From Candidatus Terasakiella magnetica (lineage in GTDB: Bacteria > Pseudomonadota > Alphaproteobacteria > Rhodospirillales > Terasakiellaceae): DNA of 64,000 bases. The notes beneath the pieces were generated by a model, which saw nothing but the letters and a program-made list of their open reading frames with translations, was not told the origin of the DNA and made no database searches. This document shows, in pieces, positions 9,782 to 42,878 of this stretch. Both the position numbers and the translations under genes were made by a program. How positions within the stretch are numbered: position 1 is the stretch's first letter; every line of letters begins with the position of its first letter. The DNA lies in NCBI RefSeq assembly GCF_900093605.1, contig NZ_FLYE01000001.1:434001-498000 (forward strand), given 5' to 3'.

Positions 9782-9810
9782 GTCACTTACAGACCTTAAG
9801 ACATCTCTTA

Positions 9811-9845
9811 AAAAGCCCTATCGGTTGCTCCGGTAGGGCTTTTTA
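9811..9845 (+). terminator. Rho-independent terminator after icmF
   Basis: AAAAGCCCTATCGG and CCGGTAGGGCTTTT form a strong stem with a T run, 30 bases after the icmF stop. Confidence 0.9.
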
Positions 9846-25230: not shown

Positions 25231-25998
25231 ATGCCAGTTTTTTTTCGCTCACTATTTGTTATTTCGGTTTTCTCTTTGTCGGTATTTTTTAGTAGCGTAG
25301 CTCTGGCAGGTTCTGCTCTATCCCTTATGACTGAAGAGTTTGCGCCCTATCAGTTTTATGAAGGAGAAGGGGAGGACAAGAAACTTACAGGCATTTCCAT
25401 TGAAATTGTCAAAGCCATTCAAAATGAAATCGGCAATAATGACAAAATCAAGGCCATGCCTTGGAATCGAGCTTTGAAGTTAGTTAAGAATAAGAAAAAT
25501 ACCGCACTTTTTTCAACAGCCAGAACACCTGAGCGAGAAGATAAATTCAAATGGGTCGGCCCTCTTGCATCATTAGAAATTGTATTCTTTCGCAAGAAAG
25601 GGAGTGACGTAACTTTTTCATCAGTTGAAGAAGCAAAAAAAGTAGGAAAAATAGGCGTCACTAAAAATGTAGCGACACAAGAAATCTTGAGTGATTTGGG
25701 TTTTCAAAACCTCGACATCATGAAAAGTGGCGCAGACGAAAAAAACCTGACACGTCTTTTAAAGGGCCGTATTGATGTCTGGCCGACAGCTTATTACGCA
25801 GGAACCTACAGTGCAAAAAAAGCTGGTAAACGAGATATGATAGAAGCCGTAAAAGGTGTAAACCTGTTATCAGGCCATCTCTATATTGCCTTCCATAAAG
25901 AGACTGATGGCAAGGTTATTAATCAATGGCAGGCGGCATTGGATTTATTAAAAGCACAAGGTGCTATCGACAAAATTATTGCAAAATACGATCGATAA
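25231..25998 (+). CDS. Periplasmic solute-binding protein (SBP family 3), first copy
   Basis: A 255-residue protein with a signal peptide (cleavage near VALA-GSAL, about residue 26) and a full extracellular solute-binding family 3 domain. Segments include TEEFAPYQFYEGEGEDKKLTGISIEIV and KIGVTKNVATQEILSDLG. It has no lipobox and no permease or ATPase genes nearby, so it is probably a sensing partner rather than a transporter part. It lies 16 bases before the giant phosphatase receptor and is a close paralogue of the protein at 39440-40186, sharing most of its sequence. The ligand is unknown; amino-acid-like molecules are typical for the family. Confidence 0.88.
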   Translation: MPVFFRSLFVISVFSLSVFFSSVALAGSALSLMTEEFAPYQFYEGEGEDKKLTGISIEIVKAIQNEIGNNDKIKAMPWNRALKLVKNKKNTALFSTARTPEREDKFKWVGPLASLEIVFFRKKGSDVTFSSVEEAKKVGKIGVTKNVATQEILSDLGFQNLDIMKSGADEKNLTRLLKGRIDVWPTAYYAGTYSAKKAGKRDMIEAVKGVNLLSGHLYIAFHKETDGKVINQWQAALDLLKAQGAIDKIIAKYDR

Positions 25999-26014
25999 GA
26001 TTTGGTAAAATAAC

Positions 26015-29000
26015 ATGTCACTAAAACGGCTCAAAATATCTGTTGGAACATTGCTTTTCTTCTTATGTATAAGCTTTGCGTATTCCCATACGTTGATAGC
26101 TGCTGATACTGTGAAGGAGGGGCAAGAACATGCCAATGCCATAGCTCGTTTTGCTGCCAAAGCAATCTACAATCTTGATGAAGACCAGTTAAGAGCTGTT
26201 TTAGACCCTTATTTAGAAGTAGATAAAAACATTAAAGGTCTACGGGTTATTGAGTCGATTGAAAATGAGGTAATCCTTCAATTTTACCGCGATAAAAATA
26301 ACAAGGTTTTATATGGAGAAACCTTGCCAACTGGGGTCACAGAACTAGAGCGATATGAAGCGCCTTCGACTTTTGAGCAGGAAAATATTGGCAAAGTCAT
26401 CGTCTATTATGAACCGCCCAATACCTTGGGCCTAACGCCAGAAGAACTGCAGTGGTTGAGCGAAAATAAAAACATTGTTTTCGGTGTTGATGAGACATGG
26501 AAACCCTGGATTATTAAAAACCAAGATGGCTCATACAGTGGCTTTGATGGCGATATTATCAAATTAGTTAATGACATGTTGGGAACAAATATGACCTTCG
26601 AAGTTGGTCGTTGGTCAGACATGGTTCAGAAATTTAAAAATCGTGAAATCGATGGACTTTCGTCTTCTGCAGTACATGCAGAAAGAAAGAGCTTTGCTGA
26701 TTTTTCAACTCCCTACACCAGTCATCATAAAATGCTATTTGTGAAAACTGGTGATAAGAGAAGGATATCAACGCCTAAAGATTTAGCAGGTAAAAAAATT
26801 GCGTTCCATAAAGGTAATTTATTTATTCAAAAATTACTTGGGACCTACCCAGAGGCTATTCCTGTTGAAATGTCTGATAATTCCGAAATGTTTGATGCCC
26901 TTTTATCAAATGAAATTGATGGTTTTGTTGGAAGCGAAGTCACGCACTATGCAATCGTAGAAAAAGGTGTTGGCTTCATTACGCCTGCCTTTACCTTGGG
27001 CGAACCACTTGAAATGGTTTTCTCCACCCGTAATGACATGCCCGAATTTGTAAGCATCCTCAATAAAGCACTTGCGAGTATCCCTATAGGGAAAAGGCTG
27101 GAGATTAAATCCAAATACGCTATATCATCTGCATCAGATACGGCCCAAAACCTTGCTTTGAACCAAGAAGAGAAACAATGGCTTAAAGCCAATCCAACCA
27201 TCTCTGTTGGCGTTGAAGAATGGTATCCTTTTATTCGAACTGAAGAAAATGGTTTACCCGGTGGCATTGCAGGCGACTTCATTAATCTGGTCCTGGAAAA
27301 AACGGGATTAAAGATAAAAGTCATTAGTGACCAATGGTCAACGTTGCTCTCAAATTTTGAGAAAGGTCAAATTGACCTTCTGCCAGCAACATATTACACG
27401 GATGAACGTGCAACATATGGGCTCTATAGCAATCCATATTTTTCGGGCAAAGAATTCCTTTATATTCGAGATGACAACACTGAGATTAAATCCTTTGAAG
27501 ACCTACGCGGTAAAAAACTCGCGATCCCTGAAGATTTTGGGACTATTCCAAAGGTTAAGGCCAAGTTTCCTGAAATTGAAATAGTAGAAACAAAAAGCCA
27601 ACTTGATTCTTTATATGCTGTTTTAAATGGTGTTGCCGATGCGACTTTTGAATCTCAAATCGTCATGGAAGATCTTATCCGTAAAGAACTTATGACTGGG
27701 ATCAGGGCTATTATCCAAACAGAGTTTGAAGCATCAAAGCTTTATTTCTTCTCCCATAAAGAGAAACCAATTCTACAATCCATTTTGAAAAAAGCATTGG
27801 ATAGTATTAGTGAGGAAGAAAGAAGGTCCATTATTAATAAATGGGTTTCTTCAAATAACATTCAGGATAGCGCAGGACAAAACGAGAGTAATTCTGCAAA
27901 TGAAAAAGCCCTTTTATCTGCACCCGTGATTGCGGCAATGGGGATAGGTCTTCTTATTATTTTCGCTGTTATCGTCTTTATTCTTAGCAAGTTGAAATCA
28001 GATAGAGACCTTTCGACCTTCTTTGGTGCGGCAAGTTTCAGGGTCAGCATTCTAATTGCGTTGAGTGTTCTGGTCGTTGGCGTTGCTCTTATGAACTGGG
28101 TTGCTATTAAGGATAGTCATAAACGCACATTAGCGACATTGGAGCAAGAACTCCAACTTGTCTTAAGCAGTTCAATCGAGCGATTAAACAGTTGGGTAGA
28201 TGAACATAAGAATTTCATTACACAATTGGGCCGTGACCCTGTTTTAGTACAAATCACAAAAGAATTGCTGAATGTTACCCCCTCAAAAGAGGCTTTGGCC
28301 CCATCTGAAGCTCTAGAAAATGCTCGACAATATTTTGCGGCCAATAAACAATTTGGCGCTGCAGGCTTTTTTATTATATCGCCTGATAAAGTAAGCATTG
28401 GATCAAGACGTGATACAAATATTGGCACAAGGAATTTCATTGCAGATGTCCGTCCTGACCTGATTGAAAGAGCGTTTAAAGGAGAAGCTGTCTTTATTCC
28501 GCCTATTCGTTCTGATGTTCAATTAACCAAGGATGAGAAACAAAAGCCTCTTACCATGTTCTTTGCAGCACCAATCACTGACAAAGACGGTGAAGTCCTG
28601 GCTGTCATGACAGAACGCATTCGTCCAAGCGGCCCCCTTTCTAGAATTCTTCACCATGGCCGCATTGGGTTATCTGGGGAGACATATGCCTTTAATTTTG
28701 AAGGGAGAATGGTAAGTGAAAGCCGTTTTCAAAACCAACTTATTGAAACAGGCTTATTACCCGAAAAAGGCTATGAGAATGTAGAAATTATCCTTAAAGC
28801 CCCTAAGGGTCATAATTTAAATAAAAGACAATTCGATAAAGGACAGGATAAATTTACGAAAATAGTGAATAAGTCACTGGAAAAACGTGAAAATAATCAA
28901 TCTGACTTAATCGTAAATGTTAAAGAAGGTTATCCTGATTACAGAGGTATAAGTGTCGTTGGCGTTGGGAGATGGCTAAAAGAACTAGACCTTGGGCTTG

Positions 29001-30730
29001 TGACTGAAATGGATTTTGATGAAGCCATGACCAGCCACCATACTTTCCGTTTCAATCTTCTGGTCATCTCAATCATCGCCACCACTATGGCTGTGGGTGC
29101 AACGCTATTTACATTGATCGTCGGGCAACGTTCTTATCGCTCTTTAAGTAAAGCCCGCGACGAACTTGAAGACCGTGTGGTTGAACGTACAAAAGAGCTT
29201 GAATATAGTGAAAAACGGACCCGCTCGATTATTGATAATGCGGCAGATGGGATCATTGTCATCAATCCGCAAGGTACCGTACAAAGCTTCAGCCCGGCAG
29301 CAGAAGATATATTTGGCTATGGCGCAGATGAAGTCGTTGGTCAAAACATCAAAATGCTCATGCCTGAACCGTACCAATCTGAACATGATGGCTATTTATC
29401 CAACTATTTTAGAGATGGTGTTAAAAAAGTTATCGGGCAAAACCGTGAGGTTCGCGGCCGAAGAAAAGACGGCAGTGAATTCCCCATGGATTTGGCTGTC
29501 GGAAAGACGGTCATTGGTGAGGAGGTGATTTTCACGGGTATTATCCGCGATATCAGTGCCCGTGTGGAAGCTGAACGACTTCAAAAAGAAAATGAAGCCA
29601 CCTTAACGGCTATTTTGGACAGTATGCCTGCAATTGTTTTCCTGAAAAAACTGAATGGCACTTTCCTCAAGGTCAATAAAGGATATCAGGAGGCCTATGG
29701 GGTCGATAGGGAGTGGGTTGTAGGCAAGAAATTATACGATTTTCTTGATCATGATTTGGCTGATAGTTTGACCTCATTTGATCAAGATGTCTTGAGCAAA
29801 GGCGGACGCAGTGAACAGGAACATACCGTTGTAAATGAAGATGGTGAAACGACATACCATGGGATTATGTTTCCGGTCCTTGATGAATTGGGTAATATTA
29901 CCTCGTATGGCGGAGTTGAAATTGACATTACGGCGAGAAAGCAAGCTGAAAAAGAGCTTCAAGATGCCTATAATATCATTTCAAGCAGCATTGAATATGC
30001 CAGCAGAATTCAAGAGTCAGCATTGCCGGATCACAGACTGCTAAGCTCCCTTGTCTCTGACTATTTCATCTGGTGGGAACCGCGTGATGTGGTCGGTGGC
30101 GACCTGTACTGGCTTGGTGCATGGGGTGACGGTTGCCTTATCATTTTAGGCGATTGTACCGGACATGGCGTTCCCGGTGCCTTCATGACCTTGATTTCGA
30201 TTGCGGCCATTGAACGGGCTGTCTCTGAAGTGGAAGGTGGTGACCTGGATAAACTGATTTCAAGGACGCACCAGTATATCCAAACCATGCTGGGTCAACA
30301 TTACGATGGCGGCCAATCTGATGACGGTATCGAGTTGGGAGCATGCTATTTCATTCCTGAAGAACCGCAAATGAAGTTTGTCGGTGCCCGTTTCAATCTT
30401 CTGATCGTTGAGGATGAAAACAATACTGTTATCAAGGGCACAAAGGCGGGTATGGGCTATCGCAATGTTCCCTACATTCAGGAATATCAGGAAGAAATCA
30501 TAGAACTGAAAGAAAACCAACAATTCTATATGACTTCTGACGGTCTAATAGACCAAGTTGGCGGTCATCGCAGAAGAATGATGGGCAAGAAACATTTGTT
30601 TAAAGTTCTGCATGAAAACAAGCACCTTGCAATGGAGGAGCAAAAACAGTCTTTACAAGACACATTGAAAACCTATCAAGGTGATGAAAAACGCCGCGAT
30701 GACATATCGATGATTGGCTTTAAGTTTTAA
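26015..30730 (+). CDS. Giant transmembrane receptor: two solute-binding domains, dCache, PAS-PAS and SpoIIE/PP2C phosphatase
   Basis: The 1571-residue protein has a signal segment (1-31), an unnamed periplasmic module (about 35-140, containing AIYNLDEDQLRAVLDPYLE), two solute-binding family 3 domains (about 150-385 and 395-620), a membrane helix near 640-665 and another near 675-695, a dCache region (about 705-1000), a third helix near 1012-1035, a coiled stretch, PAS domains (about 1068-1182 and 1195-1307), and a PPM/SpoIIE phosphatase (about 1345-1571). The phosphatase metal motifs are intact: DVVGGDLYW, GDCTGHGVPGAFMT, TSDGLIDQ and RRDDIS. It should dephosphorylate a cytoplasmic partner, for example a STAS-domain protein, in response to a periplasmic ligand. 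No partner is in the window. Confidence 0.87.
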   Translation: MSLKRLKISVGTLLFFLCISFAYSHTLIAADTVKEGQEHANAIARFAAKAIYNLDEDQLRAVLDPYLEVDKNIKGLRVIESIENEVILQFYRDKNNKVLYGETLPTGVTELERYEAPSTFEQENIGKVIVYYEPPNTLGLTPEELQWLSENKNIVFGVDETWKPWIIKNQDGSYSGFDGDIIKLVNDMLGTNMTFEVGRWSDMVQKFKNREIDGLSSSAVHAERKSFADFSTPYTSHHKMLFVKTGDKRRISTPKDLAGKKIAFHKGNLFIQKLLGTYPEAIPVEMSDNSEMFDALLSNEIDGFVGSEVTHYAIVEKGVGFITPAFTLGEPLEMVFSTRNDMPEFVSILNKALASIPIGKRLEIKSKYAISSASDTAQNLALNQEEKQWLKANPTISVGVEEWYPFIRTEENGLPGGIAGDFINLVLEKTGLKIKVISDQWSTLLSNFEKGQIDLLPATYYTDERATYGLYSNPYFSGKEFLYIRDDNTEIKSFEDLRGKKLAIPEDFGTIPKVKAKFPEIEIVETKSQLDSLYAVLNGVADATFESQIVMEDLIRKELMTGIRAIIQTEFEASKLYFFSHKEKPILQSILKKALDSISEEERRSIINKWVSSNNIQDSAGQNESNSANEKALLSAPVIAAMGIGLLIIFAVIVFILSKLKSDRDLSTFFGAASFRVSILIALSVLVVGVALMNWVAIKDSHKRTLATLEQELQLVLSSSIERLNSWVDEHKNFITQLGRDPVLVQITKELLNVTPSKEALAPSEALENARQYFAANKQFGAAGFFIISPDKVSIGSRRDTNIGTRNFIADVRPDLIERAFKGEAVFIPPIRSDVQLTKDEKQKPLTMFFAAPITDKDGEVLAVMTERIRPSGPLSRILHHGRIGLSGETYAFNFEGRMVSESRFQNQLIETGLLPEKGYENVEIILKAPKGHNLNKRQFDKGQDKFTKIVNKSLEKRENNQSDLIVNVKEGYPDYRGISVVGVGRWLKELDLGLVTEMDFDEAMTSHHTFRFNLLVISIIATTMAVGATLFTLIVGQRSYRSLSKARDELEDRVVERTKELEYSEKRTRSIIDNAADGIIVINPQGTVQSFSPAAEDIFGYGADEVVGQNIKMLMPEPYQSEHDGYLSNYFRDGVKKVIGQNREVRGRRKDGSEFPMDLAVGKTVIGEEVIFTGIIRDISARVEAERLQKENEATLTAILDSMPAIVFLKKLNGTFLKVNKGYQEAYGVDREWVVGKKLYDFLDHDLADSLTSFDQDVLSKGGRSEQEHTVVNEDGETTYHGIMFPVLDELGNITSYGGVEIDITARKQAEKELQDAYNIISSSIEYASRIQESALPDHRLLSSLVSDYFIWWEPRDVVGGDLYWLGAWGDGCLIILGDCTGHGVPGAFMTLISIAAIERAVSEVEGGDLDKLISRTHQYIQTMLGQHYDGGQSDDGIELGACYFIPEEPQMKFVGARFNLLIVEDENNTVIKGTKAGMGYRNVPYIQEYQEEIIELKENQQFYMTSDGLIDQVGGHRRRMMGKKHLFKVLHENKHLAMEEQKQSLQDTLKTYQGDEKRRDDISMIGFKF

Positions 30731-30882
30731 GTCTGTATTTCCGCTTTAGGGCAAAGAGTTTTTCAACAGCCTCAACCAAAACCAGAATAAAGGATTTGAT
30801 CAAAGAGAGCTTGATGGACCTTTGTGTCACAAGCGATTATATAAAAGTATCCTGCTAACGAGAGACTACTATTTCAGACAAA

Positions 30883-32439
30883 ATGCTTTCACATATTTCC
30901 AGAAACTATAAAATACGGTTCACAGCTGTATTCGTTTTTATTTCCTTGTTTTTATTTTCCGCCTTAGTGGCCGCAGAGGATATTCAACTGACAGCAGAGG
31001 AAAGAGACTATCTTCGAAAGCATTCTGTTTTTACGACCAGTAATCAAATCGACTGGCCGCCATATGATTTTTCTCTTCGCTCAAAGCCTGTTGGCTATTC
31101 AATCGATTATATGGAAATCGTCGCAGGTAAATTAAGTATAAAGCTAGAACATATCAGTGGGACTTGGGATGAATTGATTGAGAGGTTCTGCAATGGGGAA
31201 ATACAGATTTTCCATTCCATAGATCGATCAGAAAAAATAAGAAAATGTGCCAATATTTCCACTAGATTTGCCACAGATACGGTTCAATATCTGACCCGAA
31301 AAGAATTTCGCAATATTAATAGAGTTGAAGATGTCTATGGCACCACGGTTTCAAGTGTGAAAGGCTGGGAACAAAATGAATCCTACAAAAAACACCCCGG
31401 TCAATTTAAACTGCTTGAATACGACACCTTTGATCAAGCTGTAGAAGCCGTAAATCTGGGAGTAGCTGATTTTACGGTCAACTATGGGAACTCACTGCGT
31501 TATTTGATCCTGAAAAATGGCTATGTAAATTTAAAAGTTCAGGGTTTCTGGAAACAGGAAGGGGGAGTGCAAACGGATATATTCATTGGAACGCCTAAAT
31601 CCGACCCTATTCTTGCAGGCATCATTCAAAAGGCTATTAATGCGGTTTCACCTCAAAAAACTCAAAAACTACAAACAAAATGGTTTGGTGGCGCAAGTGC
31701 AAATGCTGAAAGCTCTCCACTCAGATTAACACAGTCAGAAAAACAATTTCTCAATGCAAAGCAGAACATTACTTACTGTGTGAGCCCGAATTGGAAACCT
31801 ATTGAATATCTTGATGATGAAGGCCAGCATGCTGGAATGACACGCGATTATCTTGATTTTTTGCGCACAAATCTAGCTATCGATTTTAAGGTTATAAAAA
31901 CAGCTTCAAGGGAAGAAAAAACCCAATTCCTGCAAGAGAAACGTTGTGACATGGCTTTTGTGACAACGCCAATGGGGGCAAACAAAACCTCTTTATTACA
32001 CACAACACCATATACCAGCCTGCCAAGCGTGATGGTTAATAAACTTGGATCTTCCTTTGTTACAAAAGGAATGAGCGAATTTTTGGATAAGAAAATAGCT
32101 GTGTTGAAAGGCTCTGCTCTTATTGAAAGCTTTAAAAAGAAATACCCCAACTTTAGCCCCGTTGAAGTTCAAACAATAGACGATGGCCTAAAACGCATTG
32201 AGGAGGGTGAACTCTATGGTTTTATTGAATATTTACCCAGACTAAGTCTTTATATGGAAAATATTGCTGATAGAAACCTCAAGATTGCAGGGCGTATTTT
32301 TGAGCCCGTTGATATGCGGGTTGCCATTCAAAAAGACCAGAAGACCTTGCATTTGATTTTACAAAAATCTCTTGATGTAATTTCTAGTGATGAGAAAGAC
32401 CGGGTATTACAGAAATGGAGTGCCATCACGGTTGAATAA
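30883..32439 (+). CDS. Two-domain periplasmic sensor, front part of a split sensor kinase
   Basis: A 518-residue protein with an N-terminal signal or anchor (residues 11-28) and two solute-binding family 3 domains (about 35-265 and 280-518), beginning with LTAEERDYLRKHSVFTTSNQ. It ends abruptly at a TAA (32437-32439). The same frame continues directly into a membrane helix and a histidine kinase. The natural reading is a BvgS-like sensor kinase interrupted by a nonsense codon, leaving a secreted double binding domain. As it stands, the product would be periplasmic with no signalling output. A working stand-alone protein or stop-codon readthrough are the alternatives. Confidence 0.75.
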   Translation: MLSHISRNYKIRFTAVFVFISLFLFSALVAAEDIQLTAEERDYLRKHSVFTTSNQIDWPPYDFSLRSKPVGYSIDYMEIVAGKLSIKLEHISGTWDELIERFCNGEIQIFHSIDRSEKIRKCANISTRFATDTVQYLTRKEFRNINRVEDVYGTTVSSVKGWEQNESYKKHPGQFKLLEYDTFDQAVEAVNLGVADFTVNYGNSLRYLILKNGYVNLKVQGFWKQEGGVQTDIFIGTPKSDPILAGIIQKAINAVSPQKTQKLQTKWFGGASANAESSPLRLTQSEKQFLNAKQNITYCVSPNWKPIEYLDDEGQHAGMTRDYLDFLRTNLAIDFKVIKTASREEKTQFLQEKRCDMAFVTTPMGANKTSLLHTTPYTSLPSVMVNKLGSSFVTKGMSEFLDKKIAVLKGSALIESFKKKYPNFSPVEVQTIDDGLKRIEEGELYGFIEYLPRLSLYMENIADRNLKIAGRIFEPVDMRVAIQKDQKTLHLILQKSLDVISSDEKDRVLQKWSAITVE

Positions 32440-32475
32440 AAGACGGATTACGGCCTTGTTCTCTTCATCCTTGGT

Positions 32476-33225
32476 GTGAGTAGCCTAATCTTCATTGTCT
32501 TTTCTATCCTCAATGTAAAAATGAGACGCTTAAACCAACGTCTTAATCAACTGGCGGAAAATGAAAAAAACAAACGCGAAGAAACATCACGCTTTCTTTC
32601 CATGCTGGGACATGAGCTAAAAACACCTTTGGCTGTTATACGAGCACTCTTAGCCAATAAAAAAATAACGCCTGCCATGATTGAGATGGCGAATAAATCA
32701 ATCAGCGAAATTGATGATGTAGTTTCAACAAGCCAAATGGCCGAAAAAGTTGAATCTGATACTGTTCAAGTTAATATTACACAATGTGATCTTAATGACA
32801 TGCTGGAGAGTTTAACTGAAAAGCATCATCTCCAAGGGAGTGTAAAATTATCTCCCCACACATCACCTACAATTAACTCAGACCTGATACTTTTAAATAT
32901 TATTTTGTCCAACTTGATCGAAAATGCAGCCAAATATGGGGCAGGGGACAAACCTATCGAAATTGAACTCTCTGATACTGAGGAACGAGATACAGTAATC
33001 TTATCAGTGGCAAATGATGTGCGAAATGATAATTGGCCTGACCCTGACAGGTTATTTGATAAGTATCATCGTGACCGCTATGCCCATCGTGTTACAGGCT
33101 CCGGTCTTGGATTGTATCTTGTGAAAGGGTTCTCCGGCTTGCTCGGGATTGATATAGAATACCAACCGACAAAGACACAAGCAGTCTTTCGCCTCTATAT
33201 ACCCAAAGAATTCAGTGCGAAATAA
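32476..33225 (+). CDS. Histidine kinase fragment, back part of the split sensor kinase
   Basis: The frame continues from the stop at 32439 through a membrane helix (LVLFILGVSSLIFIVFSIL), then HisKA with the phospho-His in MLGHELKTPLAVIR, and a HATPase domain with the N box LIENAAKYGA and G2 box GSGLGLYLVKG. The usual G1 box (DxGxG) is not visible, so ATP binding may be atypical. The first possible start is GTG at 32476, inside the helix, with no good ribosome-binding site. This looks like the C-terminal half of the gene starting at 30883. Translation as a separate protein is doubtful. Confidence 0.65.
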   Translation: MSSLIFIVFSILNVKMRRLNQRLNQLAENEKNKREETSRFLSMLGHELKTPLAVIRALLANKKITPAMIEMANKSISEIDDVVSTSQMAEKVESDTVQVNITQCDLNDMLESLTEKHHLQGSVKLSPHTSPTINSDLILLNIILSNLIENAAKYGAGDKPIEIELSDTEERDTVILSVANDVRNDNWPDPDRLFDKYHRDRYAHRVTGSGLGLYLVKGFSGLLGIDIEYQPTKTQAVFRLYIPKEFSAK

Positions 33226-33285
33226 AGAGTATTTCGACCACAACATCGCCATAAAAAAGAATATCTACTGTCTGGTGAAACACAC

Positions 33286-33546
33286 TCATGTTTCCTTACT
33301 CAGTTTTCGCTCAATCAGCTCAAGGATTGAATAGACGCTCGAGGCTGCGACTAACCCTCCAACCAGAACAAACTGGGCCGTTGGGCTAAGAGCGAAGAAC
33401 CATTCAGAGAATGCCTCGCCGTACCCTAACAGTGACAAGGCCCAACCAAACAATATGGATATACCATATGCCAACAAGCCCCCGCCTAATACGCCAAAGA
33501 CGTAGAACTCTAATTTTGGATATTTATTAAACATAGAACTTACCAT
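33286..33546 (-). CDS. Small two-helix membrane protein
   Basis: An 86-residue protein with two hydrophobic helices (about residues 12-38 and 55-75) and polar ends, no known family recognised. It is on the same strand as, and 46 bases downstream of, the large phosphatase receptor (33592-39408), so it may be the last gene of that operon and could interact with the receptor. The start may instead be the ATG four codons later, which has GGTAAG before it. Confidence 0.55.
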   Translation of the reverse strand: MVSSMFNKYPKLEFYVFGVLGGGLLAYGISILFGWALSLLGYGEAFSEWFFALSPTAQFVLVGGLVAASSVYSILELIERKLSKET

Positions 33547-33591
33547 AGCAAAACGACAGAAATATACAAGCCAGTGGGCAATGGTTTCGAC

Positions 33592-36500
33592 TTACTGATT
33601 AAGTCCAGCTTTAAAGCCAATACAAGAAAGGTCATCTCGGCGTTCTTGGCCTGCTTCATAGGTGTGGAAAATTTTATAAATCTGTTCTTGCTGATCGTTC
33701 ATAGGTAAATCAATGTGATCAAGGATTGCTTGTTTTAAGCGTTTTTTACCAAAGCCGCGTTTGCGCTCACCACCGATTTGATCAATCATACCATCAGAGC
33801 TCATGTAGTAAGATTTATCATGGGAAAGCTCAAGTGTGTGCAGCTTGAAGGATTGATCAAATTTCGTTGTGCGATACCCAATGCCAGTCTTATCACCTTT
33901 AGTGACCTCCAGCCCATTTTGATCACAAGCCCAAAGCTCAAAACGTGCACCGGCAAACAGCATGACATTCATGCTGGTGTTGATCAAACACATGCCGCAT
34001 TCAAATCCATCATCTGAATTACCTTGTCCATCCACTTGGCTAAGGACTGTTTTCACCAACTGGTTCATGCGGGTTAACAAAATGGATGGGTCTGCATCAG
34101 GCAGCTCAATTAAGGCCTGATCTAATGCACCTGTGACAACCATGGTCATAAAGGCACCGGGCACACCATGGCCGGTACAATCAACCAAGGTTAATAATGT
34201 GCCACCTGCACATTCACGCAGCAAACAAATATCGCCGCCCACAATGTCTTTGGGTTCCCAAATGAGGAAATGATCTTCAAACAGTTCATTCAGCTCTTTT
34301 GGTGTTGGCAGAACAGAGCGTTGAATGCGACTGGCATAAGAAATACTTTCTTGGATCAGCTTCATCGATTTTTCGATGATGGCTTCGTTCTTTTTGCGCT
34401 GGGTAATATTCGTGTAGGTAATAACCAAACGACCATCTGGCGTGCGTACACTATGGGCATCATAAATCTGGTCATCTCCATAAGAGACATCCAGACGGTT
34501 TTCTCCGGACCAGAGGAAGTCAACACGCTCCTGTGCCACTACCGTTGGGTCTTTATCATTTTCTCCATACTGCCCACGCACTGCCAAAATAAGTGCAATA
34601 TCAAAGAGTTTCATGCCGGGGACTAAAAGCTCTTCATCAAGCCCAATGGTGCCCGGGTAATGTTTATTCCAGGCAACAAGCTCTTGGTTTTCATCAAACA
34701 TAACCACAGCCTGAAGGACGTTTGAGAGAATATCCTGAAGCTGAATTCTGCTGTTGCGGATTTCTTCTTCGGCTTCTTTACGGCTGGAAATATCGCGGAT
34801 AATCCCGGTGAAAATATGTTCCCCTTCAATAACAGACTCACCAACGGCTAAATCCATTGGAAACTCGCTGCCATCTTTTCTCATACCCACGACTTCGCGG
34901 TTGTTGCCCACAACATTTCGGCTGTGCCCATTTAGGTAATCTGAAAGAAAATCATCATGATGGACAGCCGTGTAGGTCGGCATGAGCATTTTGACATTAT
35001 TGCCCACAACTTCTTCTTCACTATACCCAAAGATCCGCTCCGCAGCCGGACTGAAGCTCTGCATGGTACCTATTGCATTAATCACGACAATGCCATCAAC
35101 CGCATTGTCGATAATCGCGCGCATACGGCCTTCGCGGTCACGAATTTTCTGTTCCGCTTTTTTACGCTCAGTAATATCCGTGCGAATGGAGATAAAGCGC
35201 TCTGGCTTGCCGTCTTCACCCATAAACGGAATGATAGATGCCGCCAGCCAGATGGCGCCGCCGTCTCTATTGCGGTTGCAGAGTTCACCGTGCCAAACCT
35301 CACCCGACATAATGTTGTTCCACATATTTTCGTAGAAGCTACGGTCATGGTGACCCGATTTTAAGAAACGGTGGTTTTTACCCATCATCTCTTCACGGCT
35401 ATAGCCCGTAATCTCACAGAAGAAGTCATTTACATAAGTGATGTTTCCATCCACATCGGTGGCGCTCACAATGGCGTGGCGGTCCAGTGCAAATTTCTGG
35501 AAGTTCAGCTCACGGGTGCGATCTTCAACTTCTTTTTCAAGGTTATCGCGTGCTTTGCGCAAAGAACGGTTCGCACTTTGTCCAATCCAAACCGACAGGC
35601 CCGTCAGGGTCAAGGCAACGATCACCGTAATACCAAGGATCAAGGCCATGGTGATGCGCAATGTCCAGAAGGTGGACATGGCTTCATCTTCATCAACCTC
35701 AGTTGCAAAACCCACATCAAGTTTAGTGTCCCAAAGCCAAGCCCCCAGCACCTGAACACCGCGATAATCACTATAGCCCTGAACATTGACACCTGTATCA
35801 CCAACAATTGCGCTACGTGCCATTTGGGTTAAGGGGAGCTCTGCAATATTTTCAGGAACGGGTGCGCCTTCTATGAGATTGCCGCCGGGATCACCAAGGC
35901 GCAAATTCAAAATAGCATTGGTGCCCGCTTCTAAGAGTCCCAGCTTTTGAAGTTGAAAATCATAGCGACTATCCGTCACCATAATGGCTTTTTTATCAAA
36001 GACATATGTTTCGCCACTTACACCGCTTTGTCCCAACTGTGCAATACGGGTGAAATCTTCTACCGGATCATACCTTAAAGTCAGAACCGCAATGACTTTT
36101 TGGTTTTCATCAATGATCGGTGCGGCAAGAAACATGGTTGGTTCTTGCGTAAGTTCAAGCCCAGCAGCACCTTTGATACGTACGTCAGAGGCAATCGGCG
36201 GGATGAATTGTGTTTCACCCTGAAAAGCCAGCTCCAGCCTGCGGTCACGATATTTGCTGATCAAATTTAGCGTGCCAAGGTTTGTATCGCGTTTGGAGCC
36301 AATGCTGAGTTTATCTGGTGAAACAATAAAGAAGCCCTGAACTTCGCGCCCTTTAGAGTGACGGACAAACCAATCTCGAATGGAACTAAGCGGCTCGCTC
36401 CTTGAAAGCTTGCTTGCTTTTGGATCGACAAGAAGAAGGGCTTTTACATGTCCAAGCAATTCAGGGTCATTTGCGATACGCTCAATATAGCGGGTTTCAG

Positions 36501-39408
36501 CATCTAGCCAGGAACGTAATGCTTGATGAGTGGTTTTTAGGACGGTTTGAAGCTGGGCACCCACACTATTGCGCGTTTGTTGCTCCGCCCTTTCAGCCGT
36601 AATCCACGCTGCAAGAATAACGACAGCCAACAACACTGCCACACCGACAATGCCCGTTCCCTTAACTTCGCGTGATTCATAAATTTGTGAGACATCACGT
36701 TTTGCTGCGCGCGCAATGATAAAGCGAATGATCCAAAGCAACACGATCAGCCCAAAGGCCGTGCTGGTAATGGTCAGTACCAGCGTGAAAGTATCGGTTT
36801 TATTCTCTGCATTTGTAATGGCTTGTGGCGCTTTTACAATCCAGCGTGCGCGAATGGGGGCGATTTCTTCTTCCGTGACGTTATCAATTGCTTTTTGTAA
36901 AAGCTTATGAAGCATGGGCCAATCATCGCGCACCCCAATGCGTAAATTATTTGAGAAAATGGGATCATTCACACTGGCAACAATTCTCAGGTTGGTGAGA
37001 AAGAGCTTTTTGATCAAATTATCCTGAACCGCAAGCCCGCCCAATGTGGCATCAGCACGACCAGAGGAAACAAGCTTTAGGCATTGGCCTTGGTTTTGTG
37101 CCAGAAGAAGTGAAATATGGGGATAATCGCGTTCTAAAATTTCTTGATAGAAAAAGCCTTCAGGCACACAAACAAGCCTGCCAGAAAGGTCTTCAAATGA
37201 TTCAATATTTGCGCCGTCTTGGGTGACGACCATCGGGGGGTTGTCCACATAAGGTTCCGTAAAGCGAATATATTGATCACGCTCAGGCGTTTTTACGATA
37301 TTGAGCATGACATCCAGTTCTTTATTCTGGATCATCTCTAAAAACTCTGCCCATCTCGGCCCGGAAATATACTCAACATTCAGGCCTAGTTTCTCGGTCA
37401 ATAAATTCATGTAATCGATTGAGAAACCTTTGGGCTTACCGTCATTGTTAAAATTAAACGGGGCCCAGCCCATTTCATTATGAACTCTTAAAACTGGATT
37501 GCGGTTCACCCAATCTTGTTCTTCCTGACTCAGTTTTAAACGCTTTACATTTGAGCGCGCCGAAAGCTCACCAGCCCCCAGCCACTTTTTGCGCAGTTCA
37601 CGTTTTTTCTGTTCTGGCATGGCGTAAAGGGTCTTATTGAGGATGGAGACCAGTTCAGGCCAGTCTTTTCGCACCCCGATATGTTGCAGGTCATGTTTAT
37701 AAGGGGTGCGCCCAGACACTTTCATGTTAGACAGACCCAATTGTTCAATTAAGTATGTCCCAACAGCCATGTTGGAGATATAAGCGTCTGCCTCGCCAAA
37801 AGAGACCGCTTCCAGTGCTTCTTTAGAGGTCTCAACAACCTTCAATTTGATGCTTGGAAAATCTTGTTCAAGCAGCTTATGGGTAATGAAGTTGCGTTCA
37901 ACCGCAACCGTCTTGCCGATCAATTCTTCCATAGCGGCAAAAGGTGAATTCTGCCTGGCAAAAACCACCATGGGATAAGAAAAATAGTCTTGCGTAAACA
38001 GAACATATTTTTCCCGCTCCCGGCTGTAGCCAATAGTGGGCAGGATATCGACTTTCTGAAGCTTTTGAATATTATCCAGCGCATCATTCCAACTGATGGG
38101 GACAAATTCAGGCTCGATACCAATTTGGTCAAACATCCATGTGAGATGATCAAGTGCCATCCCGACAGGCTTGCCATTCTCAATGAAATGGAAAGGGGCC
38201 CATGATCCCGCCATGACCCGCATTTTTGGATGCTTGGCTAAAAAGGCGCGTTCTTCCTCTGATAATAAGTTCAGGGTACTGTTTTTAGAGGCATTAGCCT
38301 TATCAGACTTATGCGTAACAGCCATCCATTTTTGGCGAATTTTACGGACTTCTTCCACTGGAATATTCTTCAGTGCTTTTTCCATAATTTCGACCAAAAT
38401 GCCCCAATCAGAGCGAACCCCAAAACCTAAAGGGGTACTTTTTAACTTCGTTGGACCGGCAATTTTCAAATTCACCAGACTGTTTTCAGCAATTAAATAG
38501 CCCACAACCCCCAACGTATCGATGACCGCATCAATCTGTCCTGTAGAGGCCATTCTAAGGCCTTCAAGAGTACTGGGAATTTCCGTGATATTCATATCTG
38601 GATATTGTTTGCGGATAATCTCCGTAATGGCATAGCCTTTAACAATGCCGACCCGCTCACCGCTAACATCACCAAGGCCTTGAATGTCACGGTGACCTGA
38701 TTGGGTGACCACAACCCACTGGGTGCTGATGACGGGTTTGGTATATTTCAGATATTTATTTCTCTCAGGCGTTTCTTGCGACAAAGAGACGATATCAAGT
38801 TTTCGCTTATTCGCCTGTTCTTGAACCTCAGACCAGCTTAAATCAGGCACCAGTTCAAATTTTATGTTCAGCCGTTTGGACAGGGCTTCAAGATATTCAG
38901 AGGCTAAGCCTTGATGTTGTTGATCTTCTATAAAGTCAAATGGTGGCCAAGCCCTGTCTACACCAAGACGAATAACGGGATGTTCTTTTAACCATGCACG
39001 TTCTTTTACAGTTAAAGGCAGGCCGTCTTTAAAATAGATGGTAATATCGCCAATATGTTCACCTTCATAGAGGGACTTGGCGCTAAACTGGGGCAGTAAC
39101 TTTATATCCTCGGGTATTTCTTCACCATAAACGGGCTTGTTGTCTTGGTAGTAATATTGAATGAGGCTTTCTTTATCGATACTTTCTTCAATCACCAGCC
39201 CCTTAATTTTAGGGCTTTCACTTAAAAAGTTTTCCAAAACCGCAAAAAGCTGGTCACGATCCAGATTGTAGATACCGCGTGAAGTGAAAGAGGCAACGCT
39301 ATCAACAACTTTTTGCCCATCACTTGCGTAAGTAACAGGGGCAAACACCAAGCCTGCAAGAACGATAATAATCGCAGCAAGAGAGTGATTGAACTTTTGG
39401 AATTTCAT
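33592..39408 (-). CDS. Giant transmembrane receptor: three solute-binding domains, dCache, three PAS and SpoIIE/PP2C phosphatase
   Basis: The 1938-residue paralogue of the protein at 26015. After a signal peptide (ending near VTYA-SDGQ) come the same unnamed module (about 35-130, GIYNLDRDQLFAVLENFL), three solute-binding family 3 domains (starting near 143, 395 and 638), membrane helices near 870 and 920, dCache (about 940-1230), a helix near 1245-1270, PAS domains (about 1307-1420, 1433-1543, 1560-1673), and a PPM phosphatase (about 1713-1936). Metal motifs are intact: DIVGGD, VDCTGHGVPGAFMT, SSDGMIDQ, RRDDLS. The ATG at 39408 has AGGGG 8 bases upstream; an earlier TTG is less likely. It follows its own solute-binding protein gene. 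Confidence 0.87.
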   Translation of the reverse strand: MKFQKFNHSLAAIIIVLAGLVFAPVTYASDGQKVVDSVASFTSRGIYNLDRDQLFAVLENFLSESPKIKGLVIEESIDKESLIQYYYQDNKPVYGEEIPEDIKLLPQFSAKSLYEGEHIGDITIYFKDGLPLTVKERAWLKEHPVIRLGVDRAWPPFDFIEDQQHQGLASEYLEALSKRLNIKFELVPDLSWSEVQEQANKRKLDIVSLSQETPERNKYLKYTKPVISTQWVVVTQSGHRDIQGLGDVSGERVGIVKGYAITEIIRKQYPDMNITEIPSTLEGLRMASTGQIDAVIDTLGVVGYLIAENSLVNLKIAGPTKLKSTPLGFGVRSDWGILVEIMEKALKNIPVEEVRKIRQKWMAVTHKSDKANASKNSTLNLLSEEERAFLAKHPKMRVMAGSWAPFHFIENGKPVGMALDHLTWMFDQIGIEPEFVPISWNDALDNIQKLQKVDILPTIGYSREREKYVLFTQDYFSYPMVVFARQNSPFAAMEELIGKTVAVERNFITHKLLEQDFPSIKLKVVETSKEALEAVSFGEADAYISNMAVGTYLIEQLGLSNMKVSGRTPYKHDLQHIGVRKDWPELVSILNKTLYAMPEQKKRELRKKWLGAGELSARSNVKRLKLSQEEQDWVNRNPVLRVHNEMGWAPFNFNNDGKPKGFSIDYMNLLTEKLGLNVEYISGPRWAEFLEMIQNKELDVMLNIVKTPERDQYIRFTEPYVDNPPMVVTQDGANIESFEDLSGRLVCVPEGFFYQEILERDYPHISLLLAQNQGQCLKLVSSGRADATLGGLAVQDNLIKKLFLTNLRIVASVNDPIFSNNLRIGVRDDWPMLHKLLQKAIDNVTEEEIAPIRARWIVKAPQAITNAENKTDTFTLVLTITSTAFGLIVLLWIIRFIIARAAKRDVSQIYESREVKGTGIVGVAVLLAVVILAAWITAERAEQQTRNSVGAQLQTVLKTTHQALRSWLDAETRYIERIANDPELLGHVKALLLVDPKASKLSRSEPLSSIRDWFVRHSKGREVQGFFIVSPDKLSIGSKRDTNLGTLNLISKYRDRRLELAFQGETQFIPPIASDVRIKGAAGLELTQEPTMFLAAPIIDENQKVIAVLTLRYDPVEDFTRIAQLGQSGVSGETYVFDKKAIMVTDSRYDFQLQKLGLLEAGTNAILNLRLGDPGGNLIEGAPVPENIAELPLTQMARSAIVGDTGVNVQGYSDYRGVQVLGAWLWDTKLDVGFATEVDEDEAMSTFWTLRITMALILGITVIVALTLTGLSVWIGQSANRSLRKARDNLEKEVEDRTRELNFQKFALDRHAIVSATDVDGNITYVNDFFCEITGYSREEMMGKNHRFLKSGHHDRSFYENMWNNIMSGEVWHGELCNRNRDGGAIWLAASIIPFMGEDGKPERFISIRTDITERKKAEQKIRDREGRMRAIIDNAVDGIVVINAIGTMQSFSPAAERIFGYSEEEVVGNNVKMLMPTYTAVHHDDFLSDYLNGHSRNVVGNNREVVGMRKDGSEFPMDLAVGESVIEGEHIFTGIIRDISSRKEAEEEIRNSRIQLQDILSNVLQAVVMFDENQELVAWNKHYPGTIGLDEELLVPGMKLFDIALILAVRGQYGENDKDPTVVAQERVDFLWSGENRLDVSYGDDQIYDAHSVRTPDGRLVITYTNITQRKKNEAIIEKSMKLIQESISYASRIQRSVLPTPKELNELFEDHFLIWEPKDIVGGDICLLRECAGGTLLTLVDCTGHGVPGAFMTMVVTGALDQALIELPDADPSILLTRMNQLVKTVLSQVDGQGNSDDGFECGMCLINTSMNVMLFAGARFELWACDQNGLEVTKGDKTGIGYRTTKFDQSFKLHTLELSHDKSYYMSSDGMIDQIGGERKRGFGKKRLKQAILDHIDLPMNDQQEQIYKIFHTYEAGQERRDDLSCIGFKAGLNQ

Positions 39409-39439
39409 CGGTGTGCCCCTAAAGAACCTGATCAATTAC

Positions 39440-40186
39440 TTATTTTTCATATTTCATTACGATCTGGTCAATAACCCCTTTGGTACGTAAGCTATCCAAA
39501 GCGAGCTGCCATTGATGAATAATTTTGTCATCAACAGCTTTATTAAAGGCGATATAAAGATGGCCGGACATGATCTTAACATTCGGAATGGCTTGAATTT
39601 TCTCAAGCACACCCATTTTCTTGGCGCTATAGGTGCCTGCGTAATAAACCGTTGGCCAAACATCGACTCTTTTCTTAATCAGGCGCTTAAGGTTTTTCTC
39701 ATCAGCGCCACTTTCCATGACATCTAGATTAGTAAAACCCATATTGCGGAGGATTTCATGGGTGGCGACATTTTTTGTGACACCTATTTTATTGAGTGTT
39801 CTTGCCTCATCTAATGAGTTAAGGCTGATATCACTATCGCTTCGTTTGAAAAACACCATTTCTAGCGAGGCAAGGGGCCCAACCCATTTATATTTATTTT
39901 CTCGCTCCGGTGTACGCGCTGTGGAAAAGAGCAACGCGTTTTTCTTTTTTGCCAATAGTTTTAAAGCACGGTTCCACGGGAGAACCTTGATCGGGTCTTG
40001 ATTGCCCACTTCTTTTTGCAAGGCCTGAACAACCTCAAGGGAAATACCTTTAAATTGTCGGGTGCCATCATTTTCTTCATAGAACTGATAAGGTGCAAAT
40101 TCTTCCGTCATAATCATCAAGGACGAATTTGCCTGAGCATTAAACGAAAAAAGTATAAAAGCGAGAAGGGAGAGATACTTTTTCAT
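39440..40186 (-). CDS. Periplasmic solute-binding protein (SBP family 3), second copy
   Basis: A 248-residue secreted binding protein (signal peptide ending near NAQA-NSSL) and a close paralogue of the one at 25231; shared blocks include MTEEFAPYQFYE, LPWNRALKL, LFSTARTPERE, KIGVTKNVAT and YYAGTYSAKK. It lies 31 bases before the three-domain phosphatase receptor on the same strand, mirroring the arrangement at 25231-30730. The ATG at 40186 has GAGG 6-7 bases upstream and is preferred to an ATG four codons earlier. No transport genes accompany it. Confidence 0.88.
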   Translation of the reverse strand: MKKYLSLLAFILFSFNAQANSSLMIMTEEFAPYQFYEENDGTRQFKGISLEVVQALQKEVGNQDPIKVLPWNRALKLLAKKKNALLFSTARTPERENKYKWVGPLASLEMVFFKRSDSDISLNSLDEARTLNKIGVTKNVATHEILRNMGFTNLDVMESGADEKNLKRLIKKRVDVWPTVYYAGTYSAKKMGVLEKIQAIPNVKIMSGHLYIAFNKAVDDKIIHQWQLALDSLRTKGVIDQIVMKYEK

Positions 40187-40409
40187 TTCATTCCTCATTT
40201 GTCTATGTGCGCATATACAAAAGAGTAGTATTGGAAATCAAATAAGTCCATCGCTATCTACAGTTGGAACAAGCTTGTGTGGAAAAAAAATGAAATCACC
40301 CGTTAACATCTGTCACGATGTATGTTTTTGGGGCCAATTCAAAGAATTGAAAATTGAAAGAGAAGTCTTTTCGGGAAAGGTGAGGGGCTTAATTAAAGGT
40401 TTACCACTT

Positions 40410-42878
40410 TCAGCCCTTAACACTAAATGAAGCTGGAGATTCATTATTTAAAAACCTTGAATATGCCTGCTCAAATGCTTTCTCTAGATGGCATGTGTAA
40501 CGTTCAGTATCGAAAAGAGAAGATGTTTTAATATTTCCTCTGATTTTTCTTCTCAATTTCTGAAGATTCTTTGGATTTTTGGCTAGCTCTAATGCTGTTT
40601 TTTCATATTCTGAAGTTGAATAAGTGATGAGTTCTGGTAAATCCAAGCTTTTTAATATGCTGCTTGCCACCCGTGCAGTATATTGCTTACCTTCTTTTGT
40701 AAGAAGCGGTAGGCCTGACCATAGGGCATCGCTAGCGGTTGTATGAGCGTTATAGTTAAATGTGTCCAAAAACAAGTCCCCAAGCCTTTGGCGTGCCAAA
40801 TGATCAGCCAAACTTTCAACACGTTCAGCAAAAATTAATCGTGTTGGTTTGACACCTCTTATTTCAGCTTCTTTTCTCAAGTTGGTCTTAACTTGTTCAG
40901 TCGCTCGTGAAAGCCAGAGAACGCTGCCTTCAACTTTATTAAGTAGACGCATCCAGATTTCAAACTCTTCTCTCTTAATCTTATAGTTATTGTTGAAACA
41001 ACAGAAGACAAATGCCTCTTCCGGTAGTCCAAAATCAGATCGTGACATCTTTTTATCGGAGATTTCCCTCTGATCATCATTCGGTTGAAAGCTATTGGGT
41101 AGATAAATAACCTTTTCAGAATAATATTGTGCAGTCTCTTCTGGAATAACCGTTGCATCTGCAATAATGTAATCCATAAAGTCTGTACCGGTTGTACAGG
41201 GATAGCCAAGAAAGTTGATTTGTACAGGTGCGATGCGTTGTGCAAAAAGGGTTGGTCGGCTCCCTTCTGTATATCCGTTCAAATCAATCGCAATATGTAA
41301 GCCTAACTCATGGCATAAATCAGCTACTTCAGTATCTGTTTTTTCAGCAATCTCAATAAATTGATCCACTGCTGCTTTGGCTTTCTCTGTGTATTCATCA
41401 TTTTTATCTGCCACAAGAGAAAAGGCATATATTTCAAACAAGTCTTTATTGTGTTTTTCATAAACACCAGCCATAAGGTGCATGACTGGGTGATTGCGGA
41501 AATCTGTAGAAAAATAACCAATTTTGATTTTTGATGCCTTGTCCTGAGTTGTCTCCTTTTTGTCTCTCTGAGAAACCGGGAACTTCATAGAAGCATAATT
41601 CTGCGCACGCATAAACTGTCGCTCAGGGTTGTCTTCTTCACAAAGAAGAGAGAAAGGTGGAACAACGCTGTCTTTTTGACCTAAACTTAAAATAAGTTTT
41701 TTATTTCTGTCATATTCGCTCCAATCACACATTTTAGCTTGTTCATAGACTTTAGAGACCAGAGCATCAGAATAAGTCGGTTTAATTGAGAGAGCCCGTG
41801 AATATGCTTCAACAGCTTGCAGCGATGAACCTTGTTTTTGATAACTGTTACCTAGGTTATTCAGTACAATCAGGTCTTTGGGATTAATTTCCAATGATTT
41901 TTTATAAAAACTAATGGCCTCATCTTGCAGACCTTGTTCTTTATAAAGGTTACCAAGGTTATTGTATGCTGCGCCATAATTAGGGCTCACAGTTAAAGCC
42001 TGGCGATAATACTTCTCAGCTTCCTCAAATCGACCTTTTTCCTTAACTGCAACACCAAGATTAGTCAGGTAAAGCGGATTGTTTGCGGCAAGTTCAACGG
42101 CTTTTTGTAATTTTTGAACAGCTGCATCAAAATCCCCAATTTCCAATAGGGTATTGCCAAGGTTATTATAAGCCCAGGCAAAATTCGGGTTTAATGAAAT
42201 AGCTTTTTCATAGTTTGTAGCAGCTAGGTCAGGCTTCTGCGTTGACTGGTAAATGCTTCCCAATATTACGTACAAAACAGGGTCGCTTGGTGCAATGGAA
42301 AGTCCATTATTGATTTGTTTAATTGCTTTATCAAATTCTCCAAGCCCCTGATATGCCATTGCAAGATTGCCCATTGCATTTACAAAGTTGGCATTTAAAG
42401 AGATTGCTTTCTTAAATGAAGTAACTGCTTGTTTGAGCTTACCTTGTTCTTTCAATGAAACGGCAAGGCTATTGTGCGCATCAGGATATTCAGGCTTGAG
42501 TTTAATTGCTTTTCGTTGTGCCTCTTCTGCCTTTCGGTAGTCGCCCAAGGATTGAAAAACAACCCCAAGATCGTTATACGCCTCCGCAAAACGCGGCATA
42601 ATTTTCAAAGCTTGAGAAATCAGATTAAGAGCAATGTCATTTTTTCCCATTTGATGGGCCACAACACCTAAAAGGTGAAGAGCATTAGGTTGATCCGACT
42701 GAAGCGATAGAACTTGTTCATAAAGGCCTTTAGCTTGAGACAGTCGACCTGCAGTATGATGTTGAACAGCTAAATTCAGGGTCTGTTGAATTTGCATAGC
42801 CTTAGGACCGGTAATTGTGTTTTGTCCGGCTGGTTTGGCCCCAGCTTTATGCTGGCTACGGCGCTTAGCTCTATTCAT
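40410..42878 (-). CDS. TPR protein with C-terminal O-GlcNAc-transferase-like domain
   Basis: The 822-residue protein has a basic start (NRAKRRSQHKAGAKPAG), a long array of about ten 34-residue TPR repeats (about residues 30-385), and a glycosyltransferase family 41 C-terminal half (about 450-810). The latter shows IKIGYFSTDFRNHPVMHL, IDLNGYTEGSRPTLFAQRIAPVQINFLGYPCTTG and DTFNYNAHTTASDALWSGLP. Family members transfer a sugar to Ser/Thr of proteins in the cytoplasm; in bacteria some modify flagellins or adhesins, but the target here is not known. It is a monocistronic gene on the minus strand. Confidence 0.9.
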   Translation of the reverse strand: MNRAKRRSQHKAGAKPAGQNTITGPKAMQIQQTLNLAVQHHTAGRLSQAKGLYEQVLSLQSDQPNALHLLGVVAHQMGKNDIALNLISQALKIMPRFAEAYNDLGVVFQSLGDYRKAEEAQRKAIKLKPEYPDAHNSLAVSLKEQGKLKQAVTSFKKAISLNANFVNAMGNLAMAYQGLGEFDKAIKQINNGLSIAPSDPVLYVILGSIYQSTQKPDLAATNYEKAISLNPNFAWAYNNLGNTLLEIGDFDAAVQKLQKAVELAANNPLYLTNLGVAVKEKGRFEEAEKYYRQALTVSPNYGAAYNNLGNLYKEQGLQDEAISFYKKSLEINPKDLIVLNNLGNSYQKQGSSLQAVEAYSRALSIKPTYSDALVSKVYEQAKMCDWSEYDRNKKLILSLGQKDSVVPPFSLLCEEDNPERQFMRAQNYASMKFPVSQRDKKETTQDKASKIKIGYFSTDFRNHPVMHLMAGVYEKHNKDLFEIYAFSLVADKNDEYTEKAKAAVDQFIEIAEKTDTEVADLCHELGLHIAIDLNGYTEGSRPTLFAQRIAPVQINFLGYPCTTGTDFMDYIIADATVIPEETAQYYSEKVIYLPNSFQPNDDQREISDKKMSRSDFGLPEEAFVFCCFNNNYKIKREEFEIWMRLLNKVEGSVLWLSRATEQVKTNLRKEAEIRGVKPTRLIFAERVESLADHLARQRLGDLFLDTFNYNAHTTASDALWSGLPLLTKEGKQYTARVASSILKSLDLPELITYSTSEYEKTALELAKNPKNLQKLRRKIRGNIKTSSLFDTERYTCHLEKAFEQAYSRFLNNESPASFSVKG

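Follow-up and report, generated by a model that had tools for sequence, protein, structure and literature searches.

Two convergent gene pairs in the genome of Candidatus Terasakiella magnetica (Alphaproteobacteria, Rhodospirillales) raise the question of what a giant membrane receptor ending in a protein phosphatase controls, and why a secreted solute-binding protein (SBP) is encoded directly beside it. The pairs lie in a 64,000-nucleotide stretch (contig NZ_FLYE01000001.1, positions 434,001 to 498,000; hereafter the window, with positions counted from its first nucleotide). Pair A, on the forward strand, comprises a free SBP gene (25231..25998) and a receptor gene (26015..30730); pair B, on the reverse strand, comprises a free SBP gene (39440..40198) and a receptor gene (33592..39435). 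An initial annotation, made from the sequence alone, had described two loci running toward each other, each with an SBP gene followed by a receptor, and the open reading frames (ORFs) bear this out. Each pair is probably a binding protein and a SiaA-type phosphatase receptor that together feed SiaC and output enzymes sharing a stalk. The support is at the level of sequence: the domain make-up of the receptors, their intact active-site motifs, the presence of siaB, siaC and stalk genes, the linkage of these genes in relatives, and a strict pairing of the free SBP with an N-terminal receptor domain.

Receptor A (1571 aa) is composed of a signal, an N-terminal (NT) domain, two SBP domains, two transmembrane segments, a dCache-like region, a further transmembrane segment, two PAS domains and a SiaA-type phosphatase. 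Receptor B has the same order with three SBP and three PAS domains. The length of 1571 residues given earlier for A holds; the 1938 residues given for B result from an ATG start, and a TTG nine codons upstream yields 1947. In a Pfam search, receptor A matched SBP_bac_3 in two stretches (141.5 bits), PAS in two and SpoIIE (65.3 bits), and receptor B matched SBP_bac_3 in three stretches (238.6 bits), PAS families over three and SpoIIE (54.0 bits), confirming the tandem solute-binding domains, the PAS domains and the intact PPM/SpoIIE phosphatase of the initial annotation. No match to HisKA or HATPase was obtained in either receptor in this search. Hydropathy of both receptors indicated an N-terminal signal, a helix pair following the SBP array and a single helix ahead of the PAS domains, a layout that would place the SBP domains and dCache-like region outside and the PAS and phosphatase domains inside. 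A membrane-anchored sensor part, made up of hydrophobic segments and extracytoplasmic-type domains, is thus present. The free proteins A (255 aa) and B (252 aa) belong to SBP_bac_3 (58.6 and 48.9 bits, respectively); use of the second ATG of gene B would put its end at 40186.

The phosphatase domains (A, 29987..30727, forward, residues 1325-1571; B, 33607..34347, reverse, residues 1697-1943) identify the type of receptor. The only solved phosphatase that both domains matched at E<=0.01 was the SiaA-PP2C of Pseudomonas aeruginosa (6k4e; 1.7e-41 for A and 1.5e-46 for B); the domain of receptor A also matched one antibody chain at 0.003. The VGGD, DCTG, DG..DQ and RDD motifs are identical in A and B and were matched by eye to the SiaA active-site residues D457, D474, G477, D600, G601 and D653 (PMC7647112). 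The genome (3.68 Mb, 47 contigs) contains 17 SpoIIE matches, 12 of them SiaA-type, and the motifs are invariant in all 12. The other 11 domains are 43-52% identical to that of receptor A. With 12 members of the family in this genome, the two loci are not its full extent. Fused SBP domains occur in five of the 12 receptors (A, B and those of loci L031, L032 and L036), and a separate binding-protein gene lies within ~550 bp of seven (A, B, L030, the 726-aa receptor of L034, both receptors of L035, and L036).

Several loci of this family have features of their own. In L030 (G000:C45:33000-47000), a two-component-regulator beta-propeller (Reg_prop, Y_Y_Y) precedes the SiaA-type phosphatase (6813-10115), and a gene for a free SBP lies 250 bp upstream. 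The receptors of L031 (C15) and L032 (C16), with four and three SBP domains, are on contigs of 12.7 and 9.5 kb among genes that by eye resemble those for recombinases, methylases and mobilization proteins, and are perhaps plasmid-borne or mobile. In L034 (5997-9221), a SiaA-type receptor gene begins 6 bp after the end of a gene for a free binding protein from a different family (ABC_sub_bind, PF04392).

In P. aeruginosa, SiaA is the phosphatase of a system in which SiaC is phosphorylated on T68 (PMC7647112). The genome examined here encodes four SiaC and four SiaB proteins, paired at C2:172k, C1:48k, C1:656k and C44:24k, and all matches fall outside the window (C1:434001-498000). The initial annotation had placed the downstream partner outside the window, expecting a STAS-type protein with its kinase or an anti-sigma system. 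The location was correct and so was the STAS type; in place of an anti-sigma system, the partner is most likely SiaB-SiaC. A YFNSS motif is kept in all four SiaC proteins at the site of T68. Co-occurrence was examined in 150 genomes of the order, with E<=1e-20 as the limit for a SiaA-type phosphatase and SiaC counted over its cut-off. The phosphatase was found in 33 genomes and SiaC in 34; 33 had both, none the phosphatase only, 116 neither, and the single SiaC-only genome (G059) is 81% complete. SpoIIE in general was present in 123 of the 150, and the link is therefore with the SiaA type. In four genomes (G009, G014, G015 and G016), all the SiaA-type phosphatases that were found bear fused SBPs, and each of these genomes still has SiaC. 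An RsbW-type (anti-sigma) partner was set aside as the principal reading, since the occurrence of the SiaA-type phosphatase follows that of SiaC. The phosphatase domain very probably acts on a SiaC. Among the SiaB and SiaC matches, one 330-aa ORF of Cupriavidus sp. D384 (L140, 8802) matches both profiles and is perhaps a fusion.

A member of the same genus, G016, has one SiaC match and one match to the SiaA-type phosphatase, the latter a receptor B orthologue of 1937 aa whose phosphatase domain is 75% identical. Both are in one locus (L050): one strand carries the receptor and a free SBP, and the opposite strand siaB, siaC and a class III cyclase with the stalk. In the genome of the window, the siaB-siaC pair at C2 also has a cyclase beside it, to which the G016 enzyme is 86% identical; for SiaC, identity is 72% with the C2 copy and 67% with the copy at C1:48k. 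From the identities of cyclase, SiaC and SiaB to this locus, receptor B would most likely serve the C2 siaB-siaC module and less probably that at C1:48k. Four other genomes of the genus (G037, G054, G067 and G079) have neither a SiaA-type phosphatase nor SiaC over the cut-off.

Similar linkage was seen elsewhere in the order, where 76 of 79 SiaA-type matches were examined; those left out (G045:C27, G088:C171 and G088:C88) are short frames at or near contig ends. Fused SBP domains occur in 26 of the 76, spread over 12 of the 33 genomes, and siaC lies within 2.2 kb of at least seven of the 26, a lower bound because the flanks retrieved differ in length. The loci L056 and L058, which belong to two congeneric genomes, each contain a same-strand run of siaB, siaC, a gene for a stalk protein (a cyclase by domain scan in L056), a free SBP and the receptor. 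SBP-bearing receptors also occur together with siaB, siaC and stalk proteins in L051, L053 and L063. Beyond the order, an SBP-phosphatase receptor was found in three of 80 named loci (cleaned ORFs), one on the same contig as L053 and two from Magnetococcales. siaC was found in 38 of these loci with uncleaned ORFs and in 27 with ORF cleaning, which hid genes in G+C-rich loci.

The stalk proteins are candidates for the outputs. Downstream of siaB-siaC at C2 are a Guanylate_cyc protein and a histidine kinase with ~60 N-terminal residues (the stalk) in common, and a third stalk protein of the genome, at C43, contains GAF and HD_5 domains. The domains of the three are thus Guanylate_cyc, HisKA-HATPase and GAF-HD_5, with no GGDEF among them. 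A profile of the three stalks finds GGDEF-motif proteins encoded in siaB/siaC loci of Pseudomonas gingeri (2e-8), P. batumici, Herbaspirillum, Methylobacterium and others. Aligned by eye, the stalk motif RLxxLSDRxE corresponds to the SiaC-contacting residues of SiaD (K77, V78, I81, S82, D83, R84 and Q86), as these are named in PMC8457831 and not from a SiaD sequence. Among the named loci, stalk matches were present in 22 of the 40 that contain siaB or siaC and in none of the 40 that lack both, although 22/40 is not a genome-wide rate because the 80 loci were chosen by their phosphatase. These data make it fairly likely that the stalk enzymes are the outputs. The class III cyclase domain is closest to CyaB (3r5g, 1.7e-64), an adenylate cyclase, and cyclic AMP (cAMP) is accordingly the likely product. 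The GAF-HD_5 protein is encoded at 5885-7870 of L045 (G000:C43), a locus in which no siaB or siaC was found.

The free SBPs could be linked to a specific part of the receptors. In both, the signal is separated from the first SBP domain by an extra domain of ~105 residues, the NT domain (A, 26111..26437, forward; B, 39010..39327, reverse), which the initial annotation had overlooked and which had no Pfam match in the scan of the two receptors. The structure of the B domain was modelled (predicted local distance difference test score 84) and has an extracytoplasmic PAS/Cache-type fold, with similarity to CitA (1p0z; Z 11.2, 2.7 Å over 95 residues) and to the LapD orthologue CdgS9 (4u64; Foldseek 2.6e-4, Z 10.4). 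The NT domain occurs in nine of the 26 SBP-phosphatase receptors, and all nine have as immediate neighbour a free SBP of one subfamily, scoring 304-478 bits with its profile (461 for A and 478 for B, two of the three that are seeds of the profile). None of the 17 receptors lacking the NT domain has such a neighbour (best score 148 bits). Across the 150 genomes of the order, the subfamily was found in nine places at 418 bits or more, with the next match at 151; all nine adjoin NT receptors, and the NT domain occurs only in those nine receptors. In 398 genomes of the phylum, at the cut-offs used, NT and free-SBP subfamily matches were confined to these loci and to G365, where two subfamily SBPs, siaB, siaC and an HD-GYP-like gene (by eye) accompany an NT-SBP receptor that is cut by the contig end and has a weak NT match (E 2e-10). 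Free SBPs are 60-76% identical to that of B, and NT domains 25-64%. By profile and model, the free SBP is closest to amino-acid binding domains such as GlnP (GlnP/AncQR-like); the Arg of RTPER is kept, and the amino-group-binding Asp of amino-acid SBPs is not. The earlier suggestion that the free protein is tied to the receptor is supported by this strict pairing, and it is reasonably likely that the free SBP works with the receptor, its probable docking site being the N-terminal PAS/Cache-like domain.

An NT and free-SBP unit on kinases or GGDEF proteins was also sought in the 150 order and 398 phylum genomes and was not borne out: the 11 order matches (nine proteins) are all phosphatase receptors, and the sole outside match is the truncated one of G365. 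N-termini of this kind on gammaproteobacterial kinases were likewise not found at the search cut-off. One of the nine free SBP genes (L082, 1077-1769; G015:C103) contains an in-frame TAG.

In the mechanism that we infer from these comparisons, the free SBP would pick up a small ligand outside the membrane and dock on the receptor, most likely on its NT domain, with the fused SBP domains and the dCache-like domain contributing further inputs. Membrane helices and PAS domains would relay the signal to the PPM phosphatase, and this would take phosphate off SiaC, opposed by the kinase SiaB. Unphosphorylated SiaC would then bind the helical stalk of the output enzymes and activate them; in this lineage these would be a class III nucleotidyl cyclase, a histidine kinase and an HD-GYP protein. 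The fullest form of this model, to which we would give somewhat less than an even chance, is a binding-protein-gated SiaA phosphatase with an NT dock, in which SiaC and the shared stalk jointly set cAMP, histidine-kinase and HD-GYP activity and 12 such phosphatases funnel many ligands into few SiaC hubs.

Several observations weigh against this model or reduce the force of the evidence for it. Neither receptor adjoins siaB-siaC in its own genome, where four SiaC are available, so the pairing of receptor and SiaC is drawn from the congener; there, SiaB is 84% identical to the C2 copy and 85% to that at C1:48k. The YFNSS-like motif is absent from 10 of 60 SiaC matches (some genes being counted in two loci), one of them in the order (L066), and SiaC matches below the cut-off occur in three more genomes that lack the phosphatase. 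When the stalk profile was compared with solved structures, SiaD was not among the nine matches up to E 10. The Fisher values for the co-occurrence of phosphatase and SiaC (2e-32) and for the pairing of NT domain and free SBP (3e-7, or 1.2e-6 with the 14 fully visible receptors lacking NT) overstate independence because the genomes are related. The remaining three of those 17 receptors are incompletely covered, as L083 lacks its start, L055 begins within an SBP domain and only 210 bp precede L031. The nine NT pairs come from seven genomes, two being in this window and three in one other genus, and the phylum searches scored only part of the first-look candidates in some genomes. Docking on the NT domain is argued from linkage only; identities of free SBP and NT domain correlate with r 0.66, vs 0.35 for SBP and PPM domain, an uncontrolled comparison with one PPM domain truncated. 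The dCache assignment is weaker than first stated: the region lies between two hydrophobic segments, in keeping with that placement, but its dCache_1 scores (28.0 bits in A, 37.8 in B) are under the Pfam gathering score of 45.

Two other explanations concern the free SBPs. SBP_bac_3 proteins are mostly transport-linked, and the genome has 60 PF00497 matches, so the free SBPs might be orphan scavengers or feed an unlinked transporter, with a shared controlling ligand as the sole reason for their position beside the receptor. The initial annotation had noted the absence of ABC transporter genes, and this holds for the 10 flanking ORFs scanned with Pfam, which are part of those in the window and contained no ABC transporter family (no search was made for one in the rest of the genome). 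Scavenging would also leave the distribution of the subfamily unaccounted for, with strong scores only at NT-receptor loci in the order, only G365 added by the phylum, and no such protein beside any of the 17 receptors that lack NT (14 fully visible); we consider it unlikely. Alternatively, the free SBP could compete with the fused domains for one ligand and dampen signalling instead of delivering ligand. In favour of competition, the window's free and fused domains are members of one family, with similar scores against a single profile seeded by both. Competition leaves unexplained, however, why a free SBP accompanies only NT receptors and is lacking beside receptors that have as many as five fused SBPs, and it appears quite improbable.

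The remaining explanations concern the phosphatase. Its substrate might be another STAS protein of the RsbV/anti-sigma type, as in L027, where a 590-aa SpoIIE protein adjoins a 111-aa gene that by eye is STAS-like. This is very unlikely given that the closest solved homologue is SiaA, that SiaC accompanies the SiaA-type phosphatase in 33 of 33 genomes while SpoIIE in general is in 123 of 150, and that the only SiaA-type phosphatase of G016, the receptor B orthologue, has siaB-siaC beside it. Decay of the receptors into non-signalling copies might be suspected from the histidine kinase gene between them, which is broken by an in-frame TAA, yet the receptors have long intact frames and active-site motifs, and the B orthologue is kept in the congener with its 75% identical phosphatase domain; this explanation is scarcely credible. 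A binding protein acting with a SiaA-type receptor upstream of SiaC remains the preferred interpretation.

The broken gene (30883-33225, forward) is BvgS-like, with two SBP domains, a hydrophobic stretch, HisKA and HATPase; the TAA (32437-32439) is just upstream of the hydrophobic stretch, and the two halves are listed as separate ORFs of 518 and 249 aa. Beside pair B, 40410-42878 (reverse) encodes a protein with TPR repeats and a glycosyltransferase family 41 (O-GlcNAc-transferase-like) domain, and a further free SBP_bac_3 gene (47113-47874, forward) is near cytochrome genes.

Few cases are known of how free binding proteins communicate with receptors, and the strictness of the pairing between NT domain and free SBP allows the dock to be predicted. 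The model also predicts that SiaC, so far described, in the parts of the literature cited, as a diguanylate cyclase partner, is a general adaptor for stalk-bearing enzymes. G016-type strains, with one SiaA-type receptor and one SiaC in a single locus with siaB and the cyclase, make the whole path testable.

The initial annotation knew of no description of the architecture, and this stands within the open-licence literature, the only literature checked, in which neither a combination of SBP_bac_3 with SpoIIE or PP2C nor a periplasmic solute-binding sensor joined to SpoIIE was found. BvgS-type sensor kinases have tandem SBP_bac_3 domains, and the receptors resemble them in placing periplasmic SBP domains before the membrane and PAS domains in the cytoplasm; they differ in having a PPM phosphatase output with no HisKA, HATPase or receiver, additional NT and dCache-like domains, and a dedicated free SBP. 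A free binding protein gene beside a membrane receptor with a PAS/Cache-type ectodomain is also shared with SBP-activated receptors, for which chemoreceptors, sensor kinases, c-di-GMP enzymes and Ser/Thr kinases are listed in the available part of PMC9602780; a protein phosphatase is an output class outside that list. Solute-binding domains fused to Ser/Thr kinases have been described (PMC1262709). The logic of sensor phosphatase, STAS protein and second-messenger enzyme resembles pathways proposed in Campylobacterota, where PP2C proteins with periplasmic sensors are connected to STAS proteins and c-di-GMP enzymes, although solute-binding domains and free binding proteins are not mentioned in the available portion of that account (PMC9239204). 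The closest parallel is SiaABCD of P. aeruginosa, composed of the PP2C SiaA, the kinase SiaB, the DUF1987 protein SiaC and the diguanylate cyclase SiaD (PMC8457831, PMC7647112), with SiaA tied to membrane perturbation (PMC12834913). The two share the phosphatase type, the SiaB and SiaC families, the Ser/Thr site motif, and an output stalk homologous to that of GGDEF proteins beside siaB and siaC. They differ in input, which is a HAMP sensor in SiaABCD and free plus fused SBPs (up to five in relatives) here; in output, the stalk proteins of this genome being a class III cyclase, a histidine kinase and an HD-GYP protein, none with GGDEF; and in number, with 12 receptors for four SiaBC pairs. The receptors are probably part of a SiaABC-type system with a new input and an output different from that of Pseudomonas.

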